Source: Nocardioidaceae bacterium
GTDB lineage: Bacteria > Actinomycetota > Actinomycetes > Propionibacteriales > Nocardioidaceae
DNA length: 64,000 bases
Assembly: GCA_029266455.1 (NCBI GenBank)
Contig: JAQSWV010000009.1
Coordinates: forward strand, 1-64,000
Direction of reading: 5' to 3'
A model generated the notes under the pieces. That model saw nothing but the letters and a program-made list of their open reading frames with translations, was not told where the DNA came from and ran no database searches. Shown piece by piece: positions 50,760-64,000 of the stretch (position 1 is the stretch's first letter; the number at the start of each line of letters is the position of its first letter). The position numbers were made by a program, and so were the translations under genes.

Positions 50760-51770
50760 ATGACGGATCTGGCCACCCAGACGGCTCTGGGCGCGGAGTC
50801 ACGCGACGACACCCCCTTGGACTCGCGGCTGGCCGACTACCGCGGCGAGCTGACCGGCTACTGCTATCGGATGCTGGGCTCCGCGTTCGACGCGGACGAC
50901 GCTGTTCAGGAGACCATGGTGCGCGCCTGGCGCGGCCTGGACCGGTTCGAGGGCCGGTCGGCGCTGCGGTCCTGGCTCTACCGGATCGCTACCAACGTCT
51001 GCCTCGACCTGCTCGCCGGCCGGCAGCGGCGGGCACGGCCCATGGACCTGTCGTCGGCGGCCTGGCAGCCGGTCGAGGCGTCGTTGGCCGCGCGCCAGCC
51101 GGAGGCCACCTGGGTCGAGCCGATCCTCGACAGCCAGGTGCTCACCTCGGCCGGTGACCCCGCCGAGCTCGCCGTGGAGCGCGAGTCGATCCGGTTGGCG
51201 TTCGTCGCCGCCCTGCAGTACCTGCCACCCCGCCAGCGCGCCGTGCTGATCCTGCGCGACGTCCTGCGCTGGAAGGCCGATGAGGTTGCCGAGCTGCTGG
51301 AGTCGTCCGTGGCGTCGGTCAACAGCGCGCTGCAGCGGGCACGGACGACTCTCGGCTCCGACCGCGTCCGCGACAACGCCAGCATCGACCCCCTCGACGA
51401 CGACGACCAGGCGCTGCTGACGCGGTACGTCGCCGCCTTCGAGAGCTATGACATCGAAGCGTTCGTGGCGCTGCTGCACGAGGACGCCACCCAGAACATG
51501 CCGCCGTTCGAGATGTGGCTGCAGGGCCGCCACGACATCGGTGCCTGGATGGTCGGGCCCGGGCACGGATGCAGGGGTTCGCGGTTGATACCTACGCGGG
51601 CCAACGGCCGGCAGGCGTTCGCCCACTACCGCCCCAGCGGGCCGGGAGGCCGGCACGAGCCGTTCGCGCTCCAGGTCCTGGAGATCGCGGACGGCAGGGT
51701 CGTCGCAATCAGCAGCTTCCTGGACACCGCGCTGTTTCCCCTGCTCGGACTTCCCGAACACCTCGACTGA
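50760..51770 (+). CDS. ECF RNA polymerase sigma factor with SnoaL-like C-terminal domain
   Basis: A 336-residue sigma-70 family factor. Region 2 (GELTGYCYRMLGSAFDADDA to LDLLAGRQR, about 27-95) and region 4 (LPPRQRAVLILRDVLRWKADEVAELL to NSALQRARTTL, about 155-205) are complete. From about 215 an SnoaL/NTF2-like domain follows (LLTRYVAAFESYDIEAFVALLHEDA), as in SigG/SigJ-type long ECF factors, where the tail can replace a separate anti-sigma factor. The R-P-E-x-T-W-V/L-E-P segment between regions is typical. ATG 50760 is 75 nt after the preceding gene. The signal is unknown. Confidence 0.9.
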   Translation: MTDLATQTALGAESRDDTPLDSRLADYRGELTGYCYRMLGSAFDADDAVQETMVRAWRGLDRFEGRSALRSWLYRIATNVCLDLLAGRQRRARPMDLSSAAWQPVEASLAARQPEATWVEPILDSQVLTSAGDPAELAVERESIRLAFVAALQYLPPRQRAVLILRDVLRWKADEVAELLESSVASVNSALQRARTTLGSDRVRDNASIDPLDDDDQALLTRYVAAFESYDIEAFVALLHEDATQNMPPFEMWLQGRHDIGAWMVGPGHGCRGSRLIPTRANGRQAFAHYRPSGPGGRHEPFALQVLEIADGRVVAISSFLDTALFPLLGLPEHLD

Positions 51771-52306: not shown

Positions 52307-53077
52307 TCAGCCTCGACGGCCCCGGACCGGCGCGCCGAGCATGTACACCGCCGACCGGATCGCCGACGAGTGCCAGACATTCGTCCAGCGCGACCACTGA
52401 CGTCGCTTGTCCACGCACACCACCTGGACGTCGACGTCGACCTCGCGTGCCGGTTCGATCTGGCCGGCCAGGTTGCGCAGTGTCTGTACCCAGAACTGGT
52501 CCTCCTGCTTGTGCCCGCCCAGCATCAGGCCCATCTCGAAGATGGGGTCGGAGGCACGCATCAGCACCTGTGCCTGCGCCACCGTCTCGTCCTCGACCTC
52601 GGTCGCGCTGAACGTGATCCACCCCGCGAACATGTGTCCCTGGGGCGTCATCAGGGTGAAGGACTCCTCGTCGGCGTACAGCACCATGACGCCTGTCGAC
52701 AGCTTCATCCGGCCGGGCAGCGTCATGTTGAGCAGTGCGACCTCGCCGGGGGCGATTCCGGTCAGCGGGCCGTAGAAATTGTTGCCCTCGGGCCAGAAGT
52801 CAGGGAAGCGCTGCTTCCACGTCGCCACCAGGTCCACCGCCGACATCGTGGCCCTGGGAAGGCGCGCTTGGTACGTCTTCTGCCACATCTTCCCGAATCC
52901 CTGCACCGGCCCGGCCAGGCGTTTGCCGGTCACGTTCAGGTTGATGGCTCCCTCGGGAACCTCCGACACCCTCAGCCGCGACACCGCCTTCGCCCAGTGG
53001 GTGGCGTCACGCGCGGCAGCCTGCTGCTTCTCGACGTTCTCGACGTTCTTGACGGTGCGGTCGTCCAGCTCAGCCAT
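52307..53077 (-). CDS. Unrecognised 256-residue protein at the end of the partner-switch operon
   Basis: A soluble protein with a charged helical start (about 1-25) and a mixed alpha/beta body with GNNFYGPLTGIAPGEVALLNMTLPGRM, MVLYADEESFTLMTPQGHMFAGWI and GLMLGGHKQEDQFW. There is no signal peptide. The middle part has an SRPBCC/START-like look, but I cannot assign a family. It lies 16 nt downstream of the STAS gene in the same direction, so it is probably part of that operon. The C-terminal end is basic (RGRRG). Confidence 0.75.
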   Translation of the reverse strand: MAELDDRTVKNVENVEKQQAAARDATHWAKAVSRLRVSEVPEGAINLNVTGKRLAGPVQGFGKMWQKTYQARLPRATMSAVDLVATWKQRFPDFWPEGNNFYGPLTGIAPGEVALLNMTLPGRMKLSTGVMVLYADEESFTLMTPQGHMFAGWITFSATEVEDETVAQAQVLMRASDPIFEMGLMLGGHKQEDQFWVQTLRNLAGQIEPAREVDVDVQVVCVDKRRQWSRWTNVWHSSAIRSAVYMLGAPVRGRRG

Positions 53078-53093: not shown

Positions 53094-53444
53094 CTACATC
53101 GCGCCGGCAGCGCGGAGCGCCGCCTGCTCGGAGTCGTGGATGCCGACCGCCTCGTCGAGGCGGGTCAGCTCGAAGATCTGCCGGTAGTGGTCGGACAGGC
53201 CGTACGCCAGCAGCTGTTGCGAGTTCCGGTTGGCACGCACCAGCAGCGTCACCAGCAGCCCGATCCCCCCACTGTTCATGTACGACAGGTCCGAGAAGTT
53301 GAGCACAATGGCCTTGGCGTCGCCGGCCGAGTCGTAGGCCGTCATCAGCACCTCCTCAGAACCCGCCGTCACGTTGCCGCGAATGTCCACCACGCCGGCC
53401 GGTCCCTGCCGGCGCACGTCGAACACCGCCGTCGCCTCAGTCAT
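53094..53444 (-). CDS. STAS domain protein, anti-sigma factor antagonist 2
   Basis: A 116-residue single STAS domain. VFDVRRQGPAGVVDIRGNVT is the first strand region and LSYMNSGGIGLLVTLL carries the Ser that is normally phosphorylated in antagonists. QIFELTRLDEAVGIHDSEQAAL ends the fold. It is a diverged duplicate of the STAS protein encoded directly upstream (shared YGL-HYR-IFE-TRL pattern). ATG 53444 overlaps that gene by 4 nt (ATGA) and has GGAGAGGAG upstream. It presumably binds the HATPase part of the large phosphatase protein, or another anti-sigma factor. Confidence 0.88.
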   Translation of the reverse strand: MTEATAVFDVRRQGPAGVVDIRGNVTAGSEEVLMTAYDSAGDAKAIVLNFSDLSYMNSGGIGLLVTLLVRANRNSQQLLAYGLSDHYRQIFELTRLDEAVGIHDSEQAALRAAGAM

Positions 53445-53803
53445 GCGCTGCTCCTCTCCACGCCGAGAACGGCGCTGTCCTCGTCCGGATTGATCGCCAG
53501 GAAGTCCGCCAGCCGGGTGATCTCGAAGATCTCGCGGTAGTGCGGGGTCAAGCCGTACGCCCGGATCGGAATGGACCGGGCGCGGCCGGCGGCCAGCAGC
53601 CCGACGATCAGGGCGATGCCGGTCGAGTTGATGAAGCCCGCGCCCTCGAAGTTGAGGACGACCGCGTCGGGACGCTCGCGGGTGGCCTCCGCCCACGCGG
53701 CCTCCAGCGAGTGCTCGGCGCGTGCGTCCACGGCACCGACCACGTCGATGACGGCGACGTTGTCTCGCCGACGGACGACGATCGGCAGCTCACTGGTCGT
53801 CAT
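53441..53803 (-). CDS. STAS domain protein, anti-sigma factor antagonist 1
   Basis: A 120-residue STAS domain with VVRRRDNVAVIDVVGAVDA at the start and GAGFINSTGIALIVGLL holding Ser-Thr at the phosphorylation site. HYREIFEITRLADFLAI matches its neighbour. ATG 53803 lies after GAGGAAGG and overlaps the end of the phosphatase-kinase gene by 14 nt; GTG 53809 is a less likely start. It is part of the coupled string phosphatase/HATPase - STAS - STAS. Confidence 0.88.
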   Translation of the reverse strand: MTTSELPIVVRRRDNVAVIDVVGAVDARAEHSLEAAWAEATRERPDAVVLNFEGAGFINSTGIALIVGLLAAGRARSIPIRAYGLTPHYREIFEITRLADFLAINPDEDSAVLGVERSSA

Positions 53804-55427
53804 GATCACCTTCCTCTGGGGTCGTGCGGTCGTCGTGGAGGTACATCACCAGCTCCAGCGTGTGCAGATGCCCGTCGCTGGCCTCGTGTGCCTCGTCGAC
53901 CATGTTCTTGATCAGGAACAGGCCCCAACCGCGGGGCCGCTGCAGACCGGCAAGCTTGGCCTCGATGTCGGGCACCTCGGTCTCGCGGTCGGCCGGCGCG
54001 CCGCCGTGGTCGGTGATCTGGACGCGTACCCGGTCCGGCTCCCCCACGACCCGTACGGTCACTGGCTTGTCGGTGTCGTAGTTGTTGCCGTGCTCCATCG
54101 CGTTCATGGTGGCTTCGGCGACCGCGGTCTCGAGCCGCTTGAGATTGGCATCAGACATCCCGAGCGGCGCTACGACGCCGCTCACCTGAGCCAGCGCCAG
54201 TCGTTCGTTGCCCTCAGCGCTTGGCACCTCGAACTCGACCACCTGCTGCGGTACCGACCCACCCCCTGCTGCCATCGGGACCACGGCCCGGGCGAGGACG
54301 ACCATGGTGATGTCGTCCTCCTGCTCGGCGTCTGGCCCGGTGTGCGCGGCAAGATCGGTCAGCACGCGGTCGATCAGCTCGCCACCTCCGGGGTACGTCG
54401 CCACAGCGGCCTTCAGCCGGGGAAAGCCGAACATGTCCCCCTCAGGGTTGTGCGCCTCGACCACACCGTCGGAATGCAGCAGCAGTGAGTCGCCCGGTGC
54501 GAGAACGGTCTCCTTCTCCTCGTAGCGCATCCCCGGCATCAGGCCCAGCGGCATGCCTCGCGCCCGTAGTTCCACAGACCCGCCGGCGGTCTTCACGTAC
54601 GGCAGGTCATGGCCTGCGTTGGCGAACCGGAATCTCCCCGTGGCAGGCTCCAGGACCCCGTACAGGCACGTGACGAACATCTTCGCGGGCATGTCCGGAC
54701 ACAGGTGCTCGTTGACGCGCTCGAGCACCTCACACGGGTTGACGAGCCGTTGCGCCGACGCGCGTAGCACGCTGCGGGTGGCGGCCATCACCAGTGCGGC
54801 CGGTACACCCTTGTCGGTGACGTCACCGATGACGAATCCGAGTTGACCATCACCGAGCGGGATCACGTCGTAGAAGTCGCCCCCGACCTCTCGCGCAGGC
54901 CGGTAGTAGGCCGCGATCTGCCAGCCTGGCAGCTCGGGCAGCTGCTTGGGCAGGAAGTTCTGCTGGATCAGCCGCGCGACCTCGAGCTCCTGCTCGAACC
55001 GCTGGCGGGTCCGCGCCTCGGCCTCCTGCTGACGGACCAGCTGTCCGACCCGCAGCGCCGGTGCCGCCTGCGCCGCCAGGTTGTCGAGCAGCTTGCGGTC
55101 GTCGGTGGAGTACTCCTGCTCGGAGCGCCGAGGTCCGAGGTTGAGCACGCCGATCAGCTCGCCCTGGCTCACCAACGGCACCGCCAGCTTGACCCCGGCG
55201 GCTTTCAGGGCGGTGACGCCGGGGGAGTCGAGCTCGAGCGACTCGACGTCAACGGCACCGCTGGCACTTTGCAGGTACGCCAGGAGTGGGTCGTTCGGGG
55301 CGAAGTCGACAGGCGCCACGTCGTCGGCAGGGGCCGCCACCGGCTCCGTCGGCCGCCGCGAGGAGCGCTCGGCTGCCACCGACCGGCCGAGAAACCGGCG
55401 GCGGATGGATCCGGTGAGTGCAGTCAT
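53790..55427 (-). CDS. GAF - SpoIIE phosphatase - HATPase fusion protein
   Basis: A 545-residue protein that joins both enzymes of a partner-switch. After a charged start, a GAF domain (about 45-128, AVPLVSQGELIGVLNLGPRRSE) and a helical linker come first. The PP2C/SpoIIE domain (about 165-390) follows, with GGDFYDVIPLGDGQLGFVIGD and LLHSDGVVEA. Last is an RsbW-like HATPase (about 400-535): AVAEATMNAMEHGN is the N box, ITDHGGAP and GWGLFLIKNMVDEA the glycine boxes. It could phosphorylate and dephosphorylate the STAS proteins encoded directly downstream, with the GAF domain sensing a ligand. ATG 55427 shares ATGA with a short upstream frame. No sigma factor gene is adjacent. Confidence 0.92.
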   Translation of the reverse strand: MTALTGSIRRRFLGRSVAAERSSRRPTEPVAAPADDVAPVDFAPNDPLLAYLQSASGAVDVESLELDSPGVTALKAAGVKLAVPLVSQGELIGVLNLGPRRSEQEYSTDDRKLLDNLAAQAAPALRVGQLVRQQEAEARTRQRFEQELEVARLIQQNFLPKQLPELPGWQIAAYYRPAREVGGDFYDVIPLGDGQLGFVIGDVTDKGVPAALVMAATRSVLRASAQRLVNPCEVLERVNEHLCPDMPAKMFVTCLYGVLEPATGRFRFANAGHDLPYVKTAGGSVELRARGMPLGLMPGMRYEEKETVLAPGDSLLLHSDGVVEAHNPEGDMFGFPRLKAAVATYPGGGELIDRVLTDLAAHTGPDAEQEDDITMVVLARAVVPMAAGGGSVPQQVVEFEVPSAEGNERLALAQVSGVVAPLGMSDANLKRLETAVAEATMNAMEHGNNYDTDKPVTVRVVGEPDRVRVQITDHGGAPADRETEVPDIEAKLAGLQRPRGWGLFLIKNMVDEAHEASDGHLHTLELVMYLHDDRTTPEEGDHDDQ

Positions 55428-55579
55428 TGTGCTGCCTTTCTAGTCGCGCGACGTCCACCCATCGTTACGGCGCATGGGCGGTACCGGCGTCCTCGGCCTC
55501 CAGGATGGCCGTCAGCGTGGCGCAGCTCGACGTCCTCGATCGGGCGCTCGATCACCACGGTGTGCTCGAACGTGGTCAT
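55424..55579 (-). CDS. 51-codon frame coupled to the phosphatase gene; SRPBCC-like start
   Basis: ATG 55579 has a strong GGAGGAG about 5 nt upstream, and the frame ends in TGA overlapping the ATG of the phosphatase gene (ATGA). The first 17 residues, MTTFEHTVVIERPIEDV, look like the start of an SRPBCC (polyketide cyclase-like) protein, but the rest (ELRHADGHPGGRGRRYRP and onward) does not fit that fold. The simplest reading is a gene remnant whose translation start now couples to the next gene; a leader peptide is the alternative. Confidence 0.5.
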   Translation of the reverse strand: MTTFEHTVVIERPIEDVELRHADGHPGGRGRRYRPCAVTMGGRRATRKAAQ

Positions 55580-55640: not shown

Positions 55641-56882
55641 TCACGGCCGGAGCCAGACGGTGACGTGGACCGGCTGCACCGTCTCGGACACCACCCCGCG
55701 CAGGTCGGCGCTCACCGACGCGAGGTCGACCTGGTCGCGCAGCCGGGCGGTGAACGCCTCCAGCGTCCGCACGGAGTCGTAGCGGCTGCGGAAGAAGCGA
55801 CGGTCGACGCCGGCCTGAATGCGCGCACGCGCCGGCCGGAACAACGCGGCGACCGCCAGCGTCGACCCGGCGACGGCAAGGTCGGACTGGTCGGTGAACG
55901 GGTTGAGCACCAGTTGCAGGGACAGGACCGACCCGAGGTACGCGGCGGCGAGGGTGACGGTGAGTGAGCCGTAGACCAGGGCGCGGTTGATGACCCGGTC
56001 CAGGTCGTACAGCTGGTAGCGCAGGATGGCTATGCCGATCGCAACCGGCAGGAGCACGAACGACAGGAGCCGCACCGTGTCGAGCACCTTGAGCCACGCG
56101 GGCTGCGGGTCGGACGACAAGGCTGCCGCCAGCTCGGTGGCGGCAATGGACAGTACGAGCAGGGACGCCTGCACGGTTCCCGCGGCGGCGAGCCACTTCA
56201 GCTGCAGGCGCTCCAGGCCGTGGGCGCGACGCAGGCGACGCACCAGGGCGACCGCGCACGCAACCACGCAGATCCACAGCAGCGTGATGAAGAAGGCCAG
56301 CGAGACATCGATCACCGGCGCTGCTGACTCCAGGCCCAGCGGGTTGTCCTGGTCGGGCAGGACGGTCAGCGTGAGCCGCCCGGGTGACAGGTCTGCCAGC
56401 ACCGTGACCGCAATGATCGACACGGCGGACACCCAGGCCACCGAGCGCCAACGTTGCGAGGGCAGGTGACCGTCCGGGTAGAGCAGCAGCAGGAGCGTCC
56501 CTGCCAGGCCGATCCCGGGAGCCCAGCTGCCCTCGCCGATCGCCGCTGCCACGTCCGGTCGCGGCAGACGTCCGGACCCCAGCAACAGGCTCAGCCGGAC
56601 ATAGTTCTCGGTGAGTCCGCTGAGGCCCCACCCGAAGCCGATGCCTACCAGTAACCAGCCGATGGTGTTGCGTGGCTGGTGTCGCAGGATCAGCAGACCG
56701 GTGAGAGGGAAGGTCCAGATGATGCCGGCCCAAAGAACCGCCCGGACGGTCTCACTGGTCGGCGGGGATGCTGCACCGGACGGCTCGACGAACAGCAGTG
56801 GCACCTGGACGGCGATGACCAAGGACAGGAACCACCAGCCCGCCCAGGCCAGCCGTCGCAGAGCGTGATCCGACAGTGTCAC
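55641..56882 (-). CDS. Multi-TM sensor-like protein without output domain, paralogue 5
   Basis: A 413-residue membrane protein with about nine hydrophobic segments and a short cytoplasmic tail. Shared array features are FPLTGLLILRHQPRNTIGWLLVGIG, LLLYPDGHLPSQRW, LRYQLYDLDRVINRALVYGSLTV, SDLAVAGSTLAVAALFRPARARIQ and VDRRFFRSRYDSVRTLEAF, ending at HVTVWLRP. In ComP-like histidine kinases a similar TM block and linker lead into GAF or kinase domains; here the protein stops at that point. GTG 56882 overlaps the previous gene by GTGA. It is the last of five tandem copies, 61 nt before the short coupled frame. Confidence 0.8.
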   Translation of the reverse strand: MTLSDHALRRLAWAGWWFLSLVIAVQVPLLFVEPSGAASPPTSETVRAVLWAGIIWTFPLTGLLILRHQPRNTIGWLLVGIGFGWGLSGLTENYVRLSLLLGSGRLPRPDVAAAIGEGSWAPGIGLAGTLLLLLYPDGHLPSQRWRSVAWVSAVSIIAVTVLADLSPGRLTLTVLPDQDNPLGLESAAPVIDVSLAFFITLLWICVVACAVALVRRLRRAHGLERLQLKWLAAAGTVQASLLVLSIAATELAAALSSDPQPAWLKVLDTVRLLSFVLLPVAIGIAILRYQLYDLDRVINRALVYGSLTVTLAAAYLGSVLSLQLVLNPFTDQSDLAVAGSTLAVAALFRPARARIQAGVDRRFFRSRYDSVRTLEAFTARLRDQVDLASVSADLRGVVSETVQPVHVTVWLRP

Positions 56883-58102
56883 GGCGTGCTCCGGAGCCAG
56901 AGCGAGACATGGGTGGGTTGAACCGTCTGCTTGACCGCAGTCCGCAGCTCGTGTCCGACGGATTCCAGATCGACCTCGTGGCGCAGCCGGCCAGCGAAGG
57001 CGTCCAGGGCCAGGGCCGCGTCGTAGCGCTGGCGATAGAAGCGCCTGTCGACGAGGCCCTGGATCTGTGCACGGATCGGCCTGAACAAGGCCGCGACCGC
57101 GAGCGTGGACCCGGCCACCGCGAGGTCGGACTCGTCGGTCAGCGGGCTGAGGACCAGCTGGAGCAGCAGCACCGAGCCGAGGTACACGACTGCCAGAGAG
57201 ACGGTGAGCGAGCCATACACCAACGCGCGGTTGATGACGACGTCGATGCTGTAGAGGCCGTGCCGAAGGATGGCAATCCCGATGGAGATCGGCAGCATGG
57301 CCCACAGGAGGAAGGACACCTGGTCGAGCACGAGCATCCAGGCGGGTTCGCGACCGGCGGGCGCGGCCACCGCCGACGTGACGATGCTGACCAGGAACAC
57401 GGAGGCCACCACCGCACCAGCTGTGGCCAGCCATTTCAGCTGTTGGCGCTCGACGCCGCGCGAGCGCCGGAAGCGGCGTACGAGGCCGACGGCGCACGCC
57501 ACGAAGCACGACGCGAACAACGGCAGCAGGACGAGCAACGCGGCCTCGAGGACCGGCTGCGCCGACTCGACGGCGAGCGGGTTCGTCAGGCCAGGTGTCG
57601 GCGCCTCGATCAACTCGCCCGGGGACAGGTAGAGGACGATGGTCAAGGTGAGGATCGTCGCTCCTGACAGCCACGCCACCGGTCGCCACCTGGGTGAGGG
57701 CAGGTGCCCGTCGGGGTACAGGAGGATCAAGAACGTGCCCATCAGACCCAGCGCCGGAGCCCAGATGCCGCTGGCGACCAGTGCGCCCACTGCCGGGCCG
57801 GGCAGTGATCCGGGGTTCACCAGCAGCCCGTAGGTGGCGTAGTTGTCGCCGAGCCCTCCCAGGCCCCAGACGAATCCGATACCCACGAGCAGCCAGCCGA
57901 CGGTGTTGCCTGGTTGGCGGCGCAGGATCAGCAAGCCGGTGAGCGGAAAGGCGGAGAGGACGACGAGGAAGCTCAGATCGGCGCTCAGCGACCTCGTAGT
58001 GCCGTCGAAGAATGACAGGAGTGCGGCGAGGGCGAACATGGCAGCGAAGAACCACCAGGCGGCCCAGGCGAGTCGTCGAAGCGCCGCATCCGACATCGCC
58101 AT
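56879..58102 (-). CDS. Multi-TM sensor-like protein without output domain, paralogue 4
   Basis: A 407-residue homologue with the same nine-TM layout, GLYSIDVVINRALVYGSLTV, SDLAVAGSTLAVAALFRP and VDRRFYRQRYDAALALDAF, ending HVSLWLRSTP. ATG 58102 shares one base with the upstream TGA (TGATG); ATG 58096 (MSDAALRRLAW) is also possible. The 3' end overlaps the next gene by GTGA, so translation runs through the array. There is no kinase, cyclase or HD output domain. It could sense a membrane signal and hand it on by protein contact, which is inference. Confidence 0.8.
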   Translation of the reverse strand: MAMSDAALRRLAWAAWWFFAAMFALAALLSFFDGTTRSLSADLSFLVVLSAFPLTGLLILRRQPGNTVGWLLVGIGFVWGLGGLGDNYATYGLLVNPGSLPGPAVGALVASGIWAPALGLMGTFLILLYPDGHLPSPRWRPVAWLSGATILTLTIVLYLSPGELIEAPTPGLTNPLAVESAQPVLEAALLVLLPLFASCFVACAVGLVRRFRRSRGVERQQLKWLATAGAVVASVFLVSIVTSAVAAPAGREPAWMLVLDQVSFLLWAMLPISIGIAILRHGLYSIDVVINRALVYGSLTVSLAVVYLGSVLLLQLVLSPLTDESDLAVAGSTLAVAALFRPIRAQIQGLVDRRFYRQRYDAALALDAFAGRLRHEVDLESVGHELRTAVKQTVQPTHVSLWLRSTP

Positions 58103-59346
58103 CACCGCCGCAGCCACAACGAGAGGTGAACCGGCTGTACGGTCTCGCGCACGGCTGTGCGCAGATCGTCACCGACCGCATCCAGGTCCACCTGGTGTCG
58201 CAGCTGGTCGACGAAGGCGTCCAGCGTCAGGGAGGCGTCGTATCGACTGCGGTAGAAGCGCCGGTCGACGCCTGCCTGAATCCGTGCGCGCGCCGGGCGG
58301 AACAGTGCGGCGACGGCGAGCGTGGATCCGGCGACGGCCAGGTCGGACTGGCTGGTGACCGGCTCGAGCACGAGCTGCAGCAGCAGCACCAAGGCGAGGT
58401 AGACAGCCGCGAGAGCGGCGGTGAGCGAGCCGTAGACCAACGCGCGATTGATGACGACGTCGACGTCGTACAGCCGGTGCTGCAGGATGGCGACTCCGAT
58501 CGCGACGGGCAGGAGCACGAACGCCGGCGTCGACACCGTTTGCAGCACGGTGACCCAGCCGGGTGTGGGCGACGTTGCCGGGGTGAGGATGGTCGCGATG
58601 ATGGTGACGAGGAAGACGGTGGCCACCGCCGCGCCCGCTGTCGCAAGCCACTTCAGCTGCTCGCGCTCGATGCCGCGCGAGTGACGGAAGCGGCTGAACA
58701 GGCCGACAGCGCAGGCGACGATGCACAGTGCGAACAGGGGCAGCAGGACCGCCAGCGCAACCTCGAGCACGGGCGCCGCCCACTCCTGCGCGAGCGGGTT
58801 GGCCAACGTGGGCACCGGGCTCTCCTCGAGTCGACCGGGGCTCAAGGCGACAGCGACCGGCAGCAGCACGATCGTCACCGCGCACAGCCACGCCACCGGT
58901 CGCCATGCTCGGGACGGCAGGTGTCCGTCAGGGAAGAGCAGGATGAGGAACGTCCCCATGAGCCCGATCCCCGGTGCCCAGATGCCTTCGTTGAGAGCAG
59001 CCACCACATCGGCCCCCGGTAAGCTTCCGGGGTCCTCGACCAGGCCGTACCTGGCGTAGTTGTGGGCAAGAGCGCCGAGCCCCCACACCAGCCCGACGGC
59101 CTGCAACAGCCAGCCGATGGTGTTGCGCGGCAGGCGCCGCAGGATGAGCAGGCCGGTCAACGGGAAGGCCAGCACCATCACCACGAACGCCACGTCGGCG
59201 GCGCTCCCCTGGACGCCACCCCATGACTCCGCTGAGCGTGAGTTCTCGGTGAGTGCGAGCGGCAGGTCCACGGCGACCAACGCGAGGAAGAACCACCACA
59301 GCGCCCAGGCCAGTCGGCGTAGCGTCTGGTCCGATACCGAGATCAC
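58102..59346 (-). CDS. Multi-TM sensor-like protein without output domain, paralogue 3
   Basis: A 414-residue member of the same array. After the first hydrophobic segment come SWGGVQGSAADVAFVVMVLAF, LLQAVGLVWGLGALAHNYARYGL, LLFPDGHLPSRAW, RFRHSRGIEREQLKWLATAG, LYDVDVVINRALVYGSLTAA and VDRRFYRSRYDASLTLDAF, ending HLSLWLRR. GTG 59346 shares GTGA with the upstream stop. The LFPDGHLPS and ERxQLKW loops are conserved in all copies and face the same side as the tail if the topology is regular. Confidence 0.8.
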   Translation of the reverse strand: MISVSDQTLRRLAWALWWFFLALVAVDLPLALTENSRSAESWGGVQGSAADVAFVVMVLAFPLTGLLILRRLPRNTIGWLLQAVGLVWGLGALAHNYARYGLVEDPGSLPGADVVAALNEGIWAPGIGLMGTFLILLFPDGHLPSRAWRPVAWLCAVTIVLLPVAVALSPGRLEESPVPTLANPLAQEWAAPVLEVALAVLLPLFALCIVACAVGLFSRFRHSRGIEREQLKWLATAGAAVATVFLVTIIATILTPATSPTPGWVTVLQTVSTPAFVLLPVAIGVAILQHRLYDVDVVINRALVYGSLTAALAAVYLALVLLLQLVLEPVTSQSDLAVAGSTLAVAALFRPARARIQAGVDRRFYRSRYDASLTLDAFVDQLRHQVDLDAVGDDLRTAVRETVQPVHLSLWLRR

Positions 59347-60611
59347 TGGCGCCTTCCGTCCGTCGGGAGCCACAGCGACAGGTGAGCGGGGTGGACGGTC
59401 TCGCGGACGGCGGTGCTGAGGTCGGCGCCGACGGCGTCCAGATCCACCTGGTGCCGCAGCCGGTCGGCGAAGGCGTCCAGGATCAGCGCGGCGTCGTACC
59501 GGCTGCGGGAGAAGCGCCGGTCCACCCCTGCCTGGATCCGGGCGCGGGCAGGGCGGAACAGTGTGGCGACGGCGAGCGTCGAGCCGGCCACGGCCAGGGA
59601 GGACTGGTCGGTGAGCGGGCTGATCGCCGCCTGCAGCAGGAGCACCGAGCCGAGGTAGATGGCGGCCAGGGTGGCGGTGAGTGCGCCGTACACGAGTGTG
59701 CGGTTGATCACGACATCGATGTCGAACAGGCCGTGCCGGAGGATCGCGATGCCGATCGCGGTCGGCAGCAGCACGAACGAGAGGATCGAGACCTCTTGCA
59801 GCGCGGACACCCACGGGGGTTGCTCCGCCTCGAACGACCCCGCCAGGCTCGCCGCCATCGTGATCAGATAGAGGAACGCCACCAGGGCGCCGCCGGTCGC
59901 CAGCCACTTGATCTGTTCGCGCTCCACGCCGTGTGAGCGGCGGAAGCGACGGACGAGCGCGACAGCCGAGGCGACGATGCTGAGCGGCAGTAGCGGCAGG
60001 GCGATGCCGAGCACGACGAGAGTCACGGGCTCCAGCGACTCCAGTCCCAGCGGGTTGTCCAAGGCGGGGATCGGACTCTCTTCCATCCCACCCGGCGTGA
60101 CGGTGATGCCGATCGCACCGACGACAACCGCGACGCCTGCGACCCAGGCAACCGGTCGCCAGCGCGGTGAGGGGAGCCTGCCATCGGGGAAGAGCAGGAT
60201 GAGAAAGATGCCCATCGTGCCGATGCCGAACGTCCAGGTGCCCTCGTTCAGCGCCGCCACCACATTTGGCGCCGGCACCGAACCCGGGCGCACGACGAGC
60301 CCCCAGTGGGCGTAGCTGTCGAGCAGCTGGGGGAGTCCCCAGGCAAGCCCGACAGCCTCGAGCAACCACCCCACCCGGTTGCGTGGTTGCTGGTACAGGA
60401 CCAGCAGGCCGATCATCGGAAACGCCAAGATGACGACAAGGAAGCCCACCTCGCCAAGCAGCCCCCCGCCGCCCCATGTCCCGGCAGGCACGCCCGGCTC
60501 GATGGACGTGACCACCAGGTTGGTCACAGCGGATGCGACGACAAGGCAGCACACGGCGAGCGCCCACAGGCGCAGCGCACGATCCGACAGGTGGGGCAGT
60601 GCCGAGGTCAC
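59343..60611 (-). CDS. Multi-TM sensor-like protein without output domain, paralogue 2
   Basis: A 422-residue member. GLLVLYQQPRNRVGWLLEAVGLAWGLPQLL, LLFPDGRLPSPRW, VEREQIKWLATGG, LFDIDVVINRTLVYGALTAT, LAVATLFRPARARIQAGVDRRFSRSRYDAALILDAF and HLSLWLPTDG follow the array pattern. Its first 40 residues differ most from the other copies. GTG 60611 lies 22 nt after the upstream stop; this is the only intergenic gap inside the array, and GGAGGG about 15 nt upstream is a weak ribosome binding site. Confidence 0.78.
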   Translation of the reverse strand: MTSALPHLSDRALRLWALAVCCLVVASAVTNLVVTSIEPGVPAGTWGGGGLLGEVGFLVVILAFPMIGLLVLYQQPRNRVGWLLEAVGLAWGLPQLLDSYAHWGLVVRPGSVPAPNVVAALNEGTWTFGIGTMGIFLILLFPDGRLPSPRWRPVAWVAGVAVVVGAIGITVTPGGMEESPIPALDNPLGLESLEPVTLVVLGIALPLLPLSIVASAVALVRRFRRSHGVEREQIKWLATGGALVAFLYLITMAASLAGSFEAEQPPWVSALQEVSILSFVLLPTAIGIAILRHGLFDIDVVINRTLVYGALTATLAAIYLGSVLLLQAAISPLTDQSSLAVAGSTLAVATLFRPARARIQAGVDRRFSRSRYDAALILDAFADRLRHQVDLDAVGADLSTAVRETVHPAHLSLWLPTDGRRQ

Positions 60612-60633
60612 GGAGCACCACCGACCCTCCGGC

Positions 60634-61851
60634 TCACGGCCGGTTCCCGGAGCGTCGTAGCCACAGTGAGACGTGAGCCGGCCGCATCGTCTCGGTGACG
60701 ACACGGCGAAGATCGCTGTCCAGCGTCTCGAGGTCGAGCTCGGTGCGCAGGCGCTGCGAGAAGCCCTCGAGCGTACGGGCCGTGTCGTAGCGGGACCGGT
60801 AGAAGCGCCGGTCGACGACGGACTGAACCCGCGCACGCAGCGGCCGGAACAGCGCGGCGACGGCCAGTGTCGATCCGGCGACGGCCAGCTCGGACTCGCC
60901 CGTCACCGGGCTCAGCAGCAGGCGGAACACCAGTACCAGCCCGAGGTAGGTGACCACCAGGGTCGCGGTCAGCGCGCCATAGACAAGAGTGCGGTTGATG
61001 ACCAGGTCGATGTCGTACAGCCGATAGCGCAGGATCGCGAGGCCCGCGGCAAGCGGGACCGCGGCCAGGAACAGCGCCAGCATGACGTTGACGTAGTCGC
61101 CGCCGGTGTCACCGCCGGTCGAGTCGACGACCATGGCGGTCACCAGGAATGCCGGCAGCAGACCAGCCGACCACACGAACCACTTCAGCTGCTGGCGTTC
61201 CACCCCCTGCGACCGCCGGAACCGGAGCACCAGCGACCATGCGGCGAGGATCACGCAGACCAGGCACGTCGCCCACCCGACCACCTGCAGGCCGTCGGCG
61301 AGCGTGGGGTCGGCGATCCCCAGCGGGTTGTCCACCTCGGGCGCCGGCGTGTCCGTCATCTTGCCCGGAGCGAGGGCCGAGCCGGTCACCAAGCAGGTCA
61401 CGCCGATGGCCAGCAACGGAACGACCCAACGCCAGCGATCGCTCAATGGACGTCCGTCCGGGAAGAGCAGGAACAGCAGGCAGGGCACTGCCAGCAGAGC
61501 CGGCGCCCAGCTCCACGAGCTCACCCATGCGGCGGCCAGTCCACCTGGAGGCAGGCGGCCTCGGCCGTCGAGGGCGATGGCGGCGTACCCGTAGGTCACC
61601 GAGGTCACCCCCAGGAGGAGCCCAGCAGCGCAGAACAGCCAGCCGATCGGGTTCGCCGGCAGCCGAGCAGAGACCACGGCGCCGACCGTGACGAAGACCA
61701 GCACCATCACGCTGAACGCCAACGACACCAGCGGTGACTCGTCGGCGGACGCACCCAGGGATGAGCTACTGGTGAGAAACAAGATCTCGCCGGCCGCATA
61801 CGTGACGGCGCTGACCACTGCCAGTGTCAGGGCGAGTCGCGCCGACGTCAT
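60634..61851 (-). CDS. Multi-TM sensor-like protein without output domain, paralogue 1
   Basis: A 405-residue member and the most diverged intact copy. MTSARLALTLAVVSAVTYAAG gives the first segment. It keeps LPANPIGWLFCAAGLLLGV, LLFPDGRPLSDRWRW, VERQQLKWFVW, LYDIDLVINRTLVYGALTAT, SELAVAGSTLAVAALFRPLRARVQSVVDRRFYRSRYD and HVSLWLRRS. ATG 61851 has GGAG about 7 nt upstream and shares ATGA with the stop of a decayed copy just upstream, showing that the array was once one gene longer. Confidence 0.8.
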   Translation of the reverse strand: MTSARLALTLAVVSAVTYAAGEILFLTSSSSLGASADESPLVSLAFSVMVLVFVTVGAVVSARLPANPIGWLFCAAGLLLGVTSVTYGYAAIALDGRGRLPPGGLAAAWVSSWSWAPALLAVPCLLFLLFPDGRPLSDRWRWVVPLLAIGVTCLVTGSALAPGKMTDTPAPEVDNPLGIADPTLADGLQVVGWATCLVCVILAAWSLVLRFRRSQGVERQQLKWFVWSAGLLPAFLVTAMVVDSTGGDTGGDYVNVMLALFLAAVPLAAGLAILRYRLYDIDLVINRTLVYGALTATLVVTYLGLVLVFRLLLSPVTGESELAVAGSTLAVAALFRPLRARVQSVVDRRFYRSRYDTARTLEGFSQRLRTELDLETLDSDLRRVVTETMRPAHVSLWLRRSGNRP

Positions 61852-62080
61852 GGTGAGCTCCGTAGCCACAGAGACACATGTGCCGGCCGGATCGTATCGC
61901 CGATGACACGGCGCAGGTCAGCAGCGAGGCCGGCCGTCACCGGCAACGCGCGGAGGACCCCGGCGAAGACCAGTCCGCCGACCGTTGACACGAACGAAGC
62001 CTGCCGCAGCCGGGACGTCCCCGGTCCCCGGCGGCAGCCAGGACGTGTCCGAGTGTGCCCACGAGGTGCCGGAGTCGCAT
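61848..62080 (-). pseudogene. Decayed sixth copy of the sensor-like gene
   Basis: ATG 62080 has a strong GGAGGAAGG ribosome binding site and opens MRLRHLVGTLGHVLAA, but this frame stops at 61937. A different frame from about 61980 to TGA 61848 encodes VTAGLAADLRRVIGDTIRP then AHVSLWLRSSP, the conserved C-terminal end of the array proteins. Almost the whole membrane part is missing, and the ends are in different frames. The TGA overlaps the ATG of paralogue 1, as between intact copies. Most likely this was the first gene of the operon, lost by deletion and frameshift. Confidence 0.7.
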
Positions 62081-62291: not shown

Positions 62292-64000
62292 GTGATAGAG
62301 GTCAGTCTGCTGGGTCCGCCGAGGGTCCACCGCGACGGCGTGCTGGTGGCGTTCGACACCCGCAAGGCGGTGGCCCTGCTCGCCCATCTCGCGCTCACCG
62401 ACCGCCCGCGTCCGCGCGATGCACTCGCCGACCTGCTGTGGCCCGGTACCGATCCCGCGCACGCCCGCGGTGCCCTCCGGCGCACACTGTCCACCCTGCG
62501 CGGTGCCATCGGCGCCGAGCTGGTCGAGGCGACCCGTGACCACGTACGGCTGCGAAAGGGCCCCGCGATCTCGGTCGACGTCGACCGCTTCCGTGCCCGC
62601 CGCGCCGCCGGCGACCTCGATGGAGCCGTCGCGGAGTTCCGGGGCGACTTCCTCGAGGGATTCTCGGTGCGGGAAGCACCCGAGTTCGAGGACTGGGTCC
62701 AGAGCGAGGGCGCGGCGCTGCGACGCGAGCTCTCGAGCACCCTGGCCGGACTGGCCGCCGTCCATGAGGCCGCCGGCACCCCGGCTGCTGCCGTGGCGGC
62801 GGTCCAGCGGTGGCTTGCGGTGGATCCGCTGCACGAGCCCGCGCACCGGGCCCTGATCCGGCTGTACGCCGCGAGTGGCGACCGAGCGGCCGCGCTTCGG
62901 CAGTACCGCGAGTGTGTCCGCACGCTCTCCCGCGACCTGGGCGTGCCGCCGCTGGCCGAGACCACGCAGGTGTACGAGGCGGTCAACCGGGGATCGTACG
63001 GACCACCGGAGCCGACGCAGGCCCCGGTCCCCGTCCCGGGGCGGCAGCCGGTGACCGCGGCCTTCGTCGGCCGCGACGACGACCTGCGCGCGCTCCGTCG
63101 GCTGTACGACGGCATCGCCGTGGACGGCCGGGTGGTGCTGCTCGAGGGGGAGGCGGGGATCGGCAAGACCCGGCTGGCCGAGGAGCTTGTCTCCGGCCTG
63201 CGCCGTTCGGGCGCCCACGTGCTGACGGGCCGGGCGTACGAGGACGAGTCCGGCCTCGCATACTCGCCGATCGTGGACGCCCTCCGCGACCGGTCGCGCG
63301 ACGGTGACGGCTGGCTCGGTGGCGTGCCGCGTCAGGCCCTGCAGGAGGCGGCCCGGCTGGTGCCCGATCTGGTCAGCGACCGGCCGGCGGGCAACGACAG
63401 GCTCACCGACAGGCCCGGAGCCGAAACGCGCTTCCTCGCGGGCGTGTGGGACACGTTGGCGGCGGCTGCATCCGGCAGCGCCCCCGGCGTGCTGGTCATC
63501 GATGACGCGCAGTGGGCCGATGACGCAACCCTCGGGCTCCTCGCGTACGGGCTGCGCCGGCTGGCCGGTCGCCCGCTGCTGGTCGTTCTCACCTGGCGGA
63601 CGCCGCACGACCACCCGCTGCGCGGGATCGCGATCGAGGTCGCACGAACCGGCGGAGGAAGCGTGCTCCGCCTGGAACGTCTGGACGAGGACGCGGTCGG
63701 CGCGCTGGTTCGCGCCGCCCGGCCGGACGAGGACGACCCGGCGGTCGCACGGCGGCTGTGGGAGACGACCGAGGGCGTGCCACTGCTGCTGGTCGAGTAC
63801 CTGCGCACGCTGAGCGACGAGCGCGACCACACGTCAGTGCCGACCGGGGCGCGCCGGTTGCTGCAAGCGCGGCTCGGACCGATCAGCGAAACGGGTCGAC
63901 AGGTGCTCGCCGCGGCAGCCGTGCTGGGCCGGTCGTTCGGCGTGGACACCGTCCGGGCCGTCAGCGGGCGCACCGACGAGGAGACCGTGGCGGCGCTGGA
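62292..64000 (+). CDS. AfsR/SARP-type regulator with ATPase domain (3' end outside window)
   Basis: At least 569 residues, open to the right edge. Residues 1-90 form the OmpR-like SARP DNA-binding domain (SLLGPPRVHRDGVLVAFDTRKAVALLAHL). The bacterial transcriptional activation domain (BTAD) of about 95-240 follows (DVDRFRARRAAGDLDGAV, ALIRLYAASGDRAAALRQYRECVRTL). Then comes an AAA-type ATPase with Walker A GEAGIGKT (Lys292) and Walker B LVIDDAQWADD. Proteins of this kind control secondary metabolism or morphogenesis, and many end in TPR repeats, which would lie outside the window. GTG 62292 fits the expected start. It diverges from the sensor array across about 210 bp. Confidence 0.9.
   Translation, partial: MIEVSLLGPPRVHRDGVLVAFDTRKAVALLAHLALTDRPRPRDALADLLWPGTDPAHARGALRRTLSTLRGAIGAELVEATRDHVRLRKGPAISVDVDRFRARRAAGDLDGAVAEFRGDFLEGFSVREAPEFEDWVQSEGAALRRELSSTLAGLAAVHEAAGTPAAAVAAVQRWLAVDPLHEPAHRALIRLYAASGDRAAALRQYRECVRTLSRDLGVPPLAETTQVYEAVNRGSYGPPEPTQAPVPVPGRQPVTAAFVGRDDDLRALRRLYDGIAVDGRVVLLEGEAGIGKTRLAEELVSGLRRSGAHVLTGRAYEDESGLAYSPIVDALRDRSRDGDGWLGGVPRQALQEAARLVPDLVSDRPAGNDRLTDRPGAETRFLAGVWDTLAAAASGSAPGVLVIDDAQWADDATLGLLAYGLRRLAGRPLLVVLTWRTPHDHPLRGIAIEVARTGGGSVLRLERLDEDAVGALVRAARPDEDDPAVARRLWETTEGVPLLLVEYLRTLSDERDHTSVPTGARRLLQARLGPISETGRQVLAAAAVLGRSFGVDTVRAVSGRTDEETVAAL

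Follow-up and report, generated by a model that had tools for sequence, protein, structure and literature searches.

A 64,000-nucleotide (nt) stretch of a Nocardioidaceae contig (JAQSWV010000009.1, positions 1 to 64,000; hereafter the window), from a draft genome of 3.4 Mb, encodes five tandem orphan membrane sensors, S1 to S5, followed on the same strand by a single gene joining part of a GAF domain to a SpoIIE phosphatase and a HATPase kinase, and by two STAS genes. We consider it probable that these sensors are interchangeable and that each completes a GAF domain split between itself and this one partner-switching phosphatase.

The sensor array and its partner phosphatase

S1 (60634–61869, 411 amino acids (aa), with an ATG at 61851 as another possible start), S2 (59343–60611, 422 aa), S3 (58102–59346, 414 aa), S4 (56879–58117, 412 aa) and S5 (55641–56882, 413 aa), the final member of the array, were recognised by homology and are all intact open frames on the minus strand, transcribed from right to left (61869 to 55641). 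S1 shares 39–42% identity with S2 to S5, and S3 and S4 are 64% identical to each other, agreeing with an initial annotation, made from the letters alone, that had described five homologous genes; S3 and S4 cluster with sensors 2 and 3, respectively, of a relative of the same genus (genome G001). The same annotation had the genes mostly overlapping by 1–4 nt, which is true of S2/S3 and S4/S5 (4 nt each), whereas S3 and S4 overlap by 16 nt and S1 and S2 are separated by a 22-nt gap; such small distances leave little room for separate promoters. Each sensor has ~8–12 hydrophobic segments in a crude hydropathy scan, and an AlphaFold model of S1 is compatible with ~10 transmembrane (TM) helices, its TM block, for which structure prediction had been suggested from the outset, being modelled with confidence (predicted local distance difference test (pLDDT) ~97).

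No Pfam or NCBIfam model scored above its cut-off in S1 to S5, HisKA and HATPase domains were absent from them in both collections, and the TM block had no sequence relative in the PDB. Pfam HisKA_7TM reached 18.8 bits on S2, below its curated cut-off of 28.6, and matched weakly (E ≤ 0.01) in 4 of 60 sensor relatives, at best with E 1.3e-5. The TM block had no significant fold match either, the best (E 0.1), to seven-helix bundles like those of G-protein-coupled receptors, being regarded as noise. Relatives were found with a profile built from S1 to S5, and their neighbourhoods were taken from gene calls over the loci. The five window proteins stop 2–9 residues past a conserved W-L pair, near ...HVSLWLR, and 220 orphan sensors from related loci agree, with a median of 7 residues past this point and ≤18 in 95% of cases; the common SLWLRP-like end first noticed in the window is thus a property of the family.

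The partner gene (53790–55427, minus) encodes a 545-aa protein in which Pfam recognises the C-terminal part of a GAF domain, a SpoIIE domain of the PPM phosphatases (PF07228, E 2.7e-52) and an anti-sigma type HATPase (HATPase_c_2, PF13581, E 8.8e-19), the latter two also found in 21 of 21 relatives. Its half GAF (55023–55316, residues ~38–135) is without α1–β1 and aligns with positions 87–135 of 136 in GAF_2 and 50–127 of 129 in GAF_3. Two STAS proteins follow on the minus strand (53441–53809, ..FINSTGI.., PF01740 E 1.5e-11; 53094–53444, ..YMNSGGI.., PF01740 E 3.1e-11), each with a putative phosphorylatable Ser/Thr (INSTG and MNSGG); outside the window, one STAS protein of the pair often has NFxG. 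With these phosphatase, kinase and STAS features, the output side is, by its sequence, a partner-switching module. It is completed by DUF256 (52307–53077, minus), a 256-aa conserved cassette protein for which no relative was found in Pfam, NCBIfam or PDB, and on the other side the cassette is bordered, as in most lineages, by a divergent BTAD (SARP-type)/AAA_16 regulator (62292–64000, plus) that continues past the window end. The array had been said to lead directly into the phosphatase-kinase and STAS genes; order and strand are as claimed, but 213 nt with an apparent broken gene start lie between S5 and the phosphatase.

Sensor tails and the missing part of the phosphatase GAF domain

The initial annotation had also regarded the sensors as devoid of any output domain. 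No output-domain model passes its cut-off, as stated above, but the last ~45 residues of each sensor correspond to the opening segment of a GAF domain. The tails, a signalling helix followed by GAF α1–β1, span 60658–60861 (S1, up to SLWL), 59367–59570 (S2), 58111–58314 (S3), 56894–57097 (S4) and 55650–55853 (S5), all minus, and are homologous to the GAF start of full-length kinases. The TM block had been likened to that preceding GAF and kinase domains in such kinases, and TM-GAF-HisKA_3 kinases (L092, L094/L130 and L129) do carry a homologous TM block, neck helix and GAF start; in contrast to the orphans, which end after the first GAF strand, they run on through the whole GAF domain, HisKA_3 and HATPase. 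In these kinases the tail profile falls on the GAF start (L092, E 1e-5, tail positions 1–60) with the half-GAF profile after it, and in the L130 kinase the Pfam GAF match begins within the region matching the sensor tail.

The phosphatase carries the complementary piece. Alone, its half matches PF01590 only over positions 61–133 of 133, with 32.1 bits, and is thus not a complete domain in one chain; when the tail of the last sensor in Kribbella is read through its stop codon into the phosphatase the match extends over 1–133 with 38.6 bits. All 46 unfused phosphatases are without the same N-terminal GAF part, the half GAF beginning at residue ~1–81, and a SpoIIE paralogue (L195) has a complete GAF domain (PF01590 1–133). 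Nature has also joined the pieces: a 973-aa protein in the Chloroflexota genome G373 (L230), beside STAS and DUF256 genes, unites TM block, tail, half GAF, SpoIIE and HATPase, and a second TM-GAF-SpoIIE fusion (L231) lies elsewhere in that genome. In both fusions one near-complete Pfam GAF domain (2–130 of 133) extends across the joint, and no orphan sensors were found in G373. These genuine TM-GAF-SpoIIE fusions surfaced only in a Chloroflexota survey; a first set of closest SpoIIE paralogues, from Rubrobacteraceae and Chloroflexota, had CHASE-like, SnoaL-like or complete-GAF inputs and no TM-SpoIIE fusion. The N-terminus of two Rubrobacteraceae SpoIIE phosphatases reads like a SnoaL-type domain (L185:7580-8725 and L187:2261-3427).

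Conservation along the sensors is sharply focused, with an information content per column of 3.2 bits in QPxHVSLWLR, 0.7 bits just after it and 1.2–1.8 bits over the N-terminal two thirds; as read from the alignment, this is the profile of variable inputs on a single conserved plug. An AlphaFold model of a 226-residue Kribbella stretch, in which sensor tail, phosphatase leader and half GAF were given as a single chain with an alignment of 54 sequences, most rows spanning one half only, reached a predicted template modelling score (pTM) of 0.71, with the strand VSLWL formed (pLDDT ~88), the half GAF at ~95 and the leader disordered. Foldseek aligned this model with GAF domains in the PDB over ~200–230 columns (5w10, TMt 0.60–0.63), long enough to include both pieces. 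In S1 modelled alone the tail strand was unformed (pLDDT ~50). Tail and half GAF are thus predicted to fold into one GAF domain.

Spread of the cassette and co-occurrence of its parts

The cassette, with a divergent BTAD/AAA regulator, a varying number of sensors, the GAF-SpoIIE-HATPase gene, two STAS genes and DUF256 in this order, recurs in Nocardioidaceae, Kribbella, Thermoleophilia, Rubrobacteria and Chloroflexota, with 3–5 tandem sensors in Kribbella and a maximum of 13 in a row (L084). Linkage of the array to phosphatase and STAS genes elsewhere, the absence of which had been named beforehand as a refuting observation, was clearly found: STAS genes lie downstream of the half-GAF phosphatase in 45 of 45 cases and DUF256 in 41 of 42, and sensors lie ≤8 genes away from 41 of the 48 distinct phosphatase genes with context, a figure inflated because part of this set was reached via the sensors; at loci reached via the phosphatase, sensors are linked in about 16 of 20 (manual count). 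Sensors mostly precede the phosphatase and follow DUF256 in L204, L227, L236 and L237; since they occur on either side of the phosphatase genes, linkage outlives rearrangement. In several lineages (L015, L044, L232 and L233) the phosphatase is split further, half-GAF-SpoIIE and HATPase being two adjoining genes.

Sensors and phosphatase also coincide across genomes. Among 197 genomes of a class survey, orphan sensors were present in 7, the phosphatase in 6 and both in 5 at the first threshold, with a sixth co-occurrence in G094, where a targeted search recovered a phosphatase fragment; the exceptions were G108, with sensors only, and G115, with the phosphatase and merely weak sensor fragments. 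A survey of 251 Chloroflexota, the phylum of G290, yielded clear orphan sensors, as judged by eye from open-frame lengths and tail coverage, in 15 genomes and the phosphatase in 15 of these 15; in G426 of this survey the sensor array is interrupted by a contig end. Among the 43 genomes reached through sensor loci, 34 have a half-GAF phosphatase (manual count). Conversely, the phosphatase occurs without orphan sensors in G373, which has the natural fusions, and in G434, where no sensor was found and an apparent TM-HAMP input replaces the half GAF in the cassette phosphatase. The two sensors of G510 (L244:5128-7964), which adjoin DUF256, have an extra N-terminal segment reading like a PDZ-type domain.

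Sensors can outnumber their partner and need not be near it. G290 has ~15 sensors and one phosphatase, and in G365, a single contig of 5.1 Mb, six orphan sensors are scattered with none near the sole phosphatase and must therefore act in trans. An intact 393-aa orphan sensor ending in QHLSLWLPGRS lies on another contig of the window's own genome (L124, G000:C19:21537-22712); together with S1 to S5, this makes at least six sensors per phosphatase. Kribbella sensors 1, 2, 3 and 4 form separate clades by position across species, suggesting that the repertoire is old, and the ratio of nonsynonymous to synonymous substitution (dN/dS) between orthologous sensors is 0.18–0.30 (0.26 for S4 and sensor 3 of G001, at 75% identity); on these ratios the sensors are under purifying selection.

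A proposed split receptor and its alternatives

In the mechanism that we propose, each sensor would bring its own ~10-TM input block, a conserved helical neck and the first GAF helix and strand, and the sole GAF-SpoIIE-HATPase protein would supply the remainder of the domain. Docking would insert the helix and strand of a sensor, completing the GAF domain in trans and tethering the phosphatase to the membrane, and a signal could then pass from TM block through neck helix, completed GAF and coiled-coil linker to the SpoIIE phosphatase, and perhaps to the fused kinase. Phosphatase output would set the phosphorylation state of the two STAS antagonists, its putative substrates. As the sensors share the plug and differ in input, they would be expected to compete in the cell for one phosphatase. 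In PPM phosphatases of this kind, N-terminal domains, GAF and PAS among others, are reported to signal to the dimeric phosphatase via coiled-coil linkers (eLife 2025, PMC12143880). The initial annotation had suggested that several sensors feed one partner switch by direct contact, which fits the many sensors per phosphatase, the putative contact being the split GAF itself; that tail and phosphatase touch physically is predicted from homology, natural fusions and structure models. We hold, with somewhat less assurance but still as the likelier case, that this is an example of a general receptor architecture, in which independently evolving sensors carry a short helix-strand 'key' and compete for one effector, which thereby integrates their inputs.

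Several observations weigh against this proposal. Joining the window tails to the half GAF improves the Pfam GAF score by only ~1–3 bits over reversed-tail controls, and the GAF match reaches the tail for S2 and S5, not for S1, S3 and S4. Both pieces were joined in one chain for AlphaFold, which favours contact. No half-GAF phosphatase was detected in G108, despite 16 sensor matches, or in 9 of the 43 sensor-locus genomes, all drafts of unknown completeness, in 2 of which the sensors adjoin STAS or DUF256 genes; nor was a phosphatase found in G510 beside its two sensors and DUF256. Finally, no sigma factor or other target was recognised as conserved within the cassette.

The sign of the interaction is a separate matter. 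Docking through the split GAF could be inhibitory, with sensors holding the phosphatase at the membrane until a signal frees it, a sub-case overlapping our proposal to which we give a distinctly minor share of the probability. Sequence cannot separate the two signs, and sequestration of RsbT by the stressosome follows a comparable logic. Release is, however, impossible in the fused proteins of G373, and there, at least, the signal must cross the assembled GAF domain.

A little less probable is that sensors and phosphatase share one pathway, with the tail serving as a dimerisation or docking element for some other surface and the half GAF being a short, self-sufficient GAF-like fold. The half alone already exceeds Pfam GAF cut-offs, and the model uniting both pieces came only from a single chain. 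Against this, a self-sufficient fold sits poorly with 46 unfused phosphatases without the very same piece when the GAF of L195 is complete, with natural fusions that join tail and half precisely at the missing piece, and with a tail strand that becomes ordered only in the model containing the half GAF.

A reading of the orphans as histidine kinases in decay, or as debris of array duplication, with a tail that is a vestige of a lost GAF-kinase part, is very unlikely. The same genomes do encode full-length kinases that share the TM block, and broken copies exist, including a degenerate 285-aa copy in G001 and a sixth-sensor remnant upstream of S1 (61848–61931, minus, E 4.8e-5) of which only 28 tail residues (..LAADLRRVIGDTIRPAHVSLWLRSSP) are left. 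Decay would not, however, be expected to leave 220 proteins with a common end point, conservation that peaks near that end and collapses beyond it, purifying selection, orthologous clades by array position that persist among Kribbella species, or linkage to the phosphatase cassette spanning two phyla. Slimmer still is the chance that stop-codon readthrough joins the last sensor, the only one then to signal, to the phosphatase: in Kribbella the two are in frame, separated by one TAG codon and 9 nt, but we rejected this mechanism because the AAAGG and start codon after the TAG resemble an ordinary ribosome-binding site, because frames differ or gaps are long elsewhere (213 nt in the window), and because sensors also lie downstream of the phosphatase or dispersed in the genome.

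A GAF domain split between sensors and phosphatase would set the cassette apart from known partner switches. RsbU, RsbP and RsbZ, acting with RsbV and RsbW, likewise combine a SpoIIE phosphatase bearing an N-terminal sensory domain and helical linker with an anti-sigma-type HATPase and STAS antagonists; in the cassette, the GAF domain is divided, its N-terminal piece being available on any of the membrane sensors and the rest on the phosphatase, a single chain holds kinase and phosphatase, and no sigma factor is conserved nearby. Mycobacterium tuberculosis Rv1364c and Streptomyces coelicolor OsaC carry a sensory domain and SpoIIE in one protein, to which Rv1364c adds anti-sigma and anti-anti-sigma domains (PMC12143880); by their descriptions, they differ in having complete sensory domains in-chain and one input set per phosphatase. 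In the RsbT–RsbU pair a separate protein also switches a phosphatase by acting on its N-terminal part (PMC12143880), but RsbT is soluble, and its target is an intact domain plus linker rather than a fold that lacks a piece. Bacillus subtilis ComP, with which the initial annotation compared the sensors, likewise has a polytopic N-terminal membrane sensor, the Pfam link being the weak HisKA_7TM matches given above, but is one complete kinase. Neither a split GAF domain nor such an array with SpoIIE, partner-switching, GAF or STAS components was found described in the open-access papers searched; the new part would be the receptor architecture, in which one effector shares its GAF domain with many receptors.

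This architecture bears on how many different signals converge on a single partner switch, for which stressosomes and paralogous phosphatases are known routes. A cut fold would let the receptor side multiply and the effector side stay single, being fused in one genome, dispersed in another and 13 in tandem in a third, and, if our proposal is right, a cell would gain inputs by gene duplication without extra effectors. A large set of unnamed membrane proteins, with no Pfam model above cut-off and no PDB relative, would become receptors with a predicted partner, and the split GAF hints at a naturally occurring split-domain module that synthetic circuits with several inputs could use.

Minor features of the locus and its relatives were also recorded. 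Between S5 and the phosphatase, a short open start (55437–55579, minus; MTTFEHTVVIERPIEDV..) reads like a broken SRPBCC-type gene, and at the matching position L025 carries an intact gene of ~150 aa. In Kribbella (L019, L021, L022, L043 and L051), in L023 and in the window (55420–55445), the last sensor's end and the phosphatase start have in common RNDSRT codons and/or, ahead of the start codon, TAGAAAGG; although strikingly conserved, this stretch is probably a ribosome-binding site. Near the cassette, on the opposite strand, lies a gene for an extracytoplasmic function (ECF) sigma factor with a C-terminal SnoaL-like domain (50760–51767, plus). A phytoene-desaturase-like FAD oxidoreductase of ~480 aa, as judged by reading, is found 3′ of DUF256 in many lineages, though not in the window (L012:12819-14267, L035:10596-12035, L048, L059 and L077).

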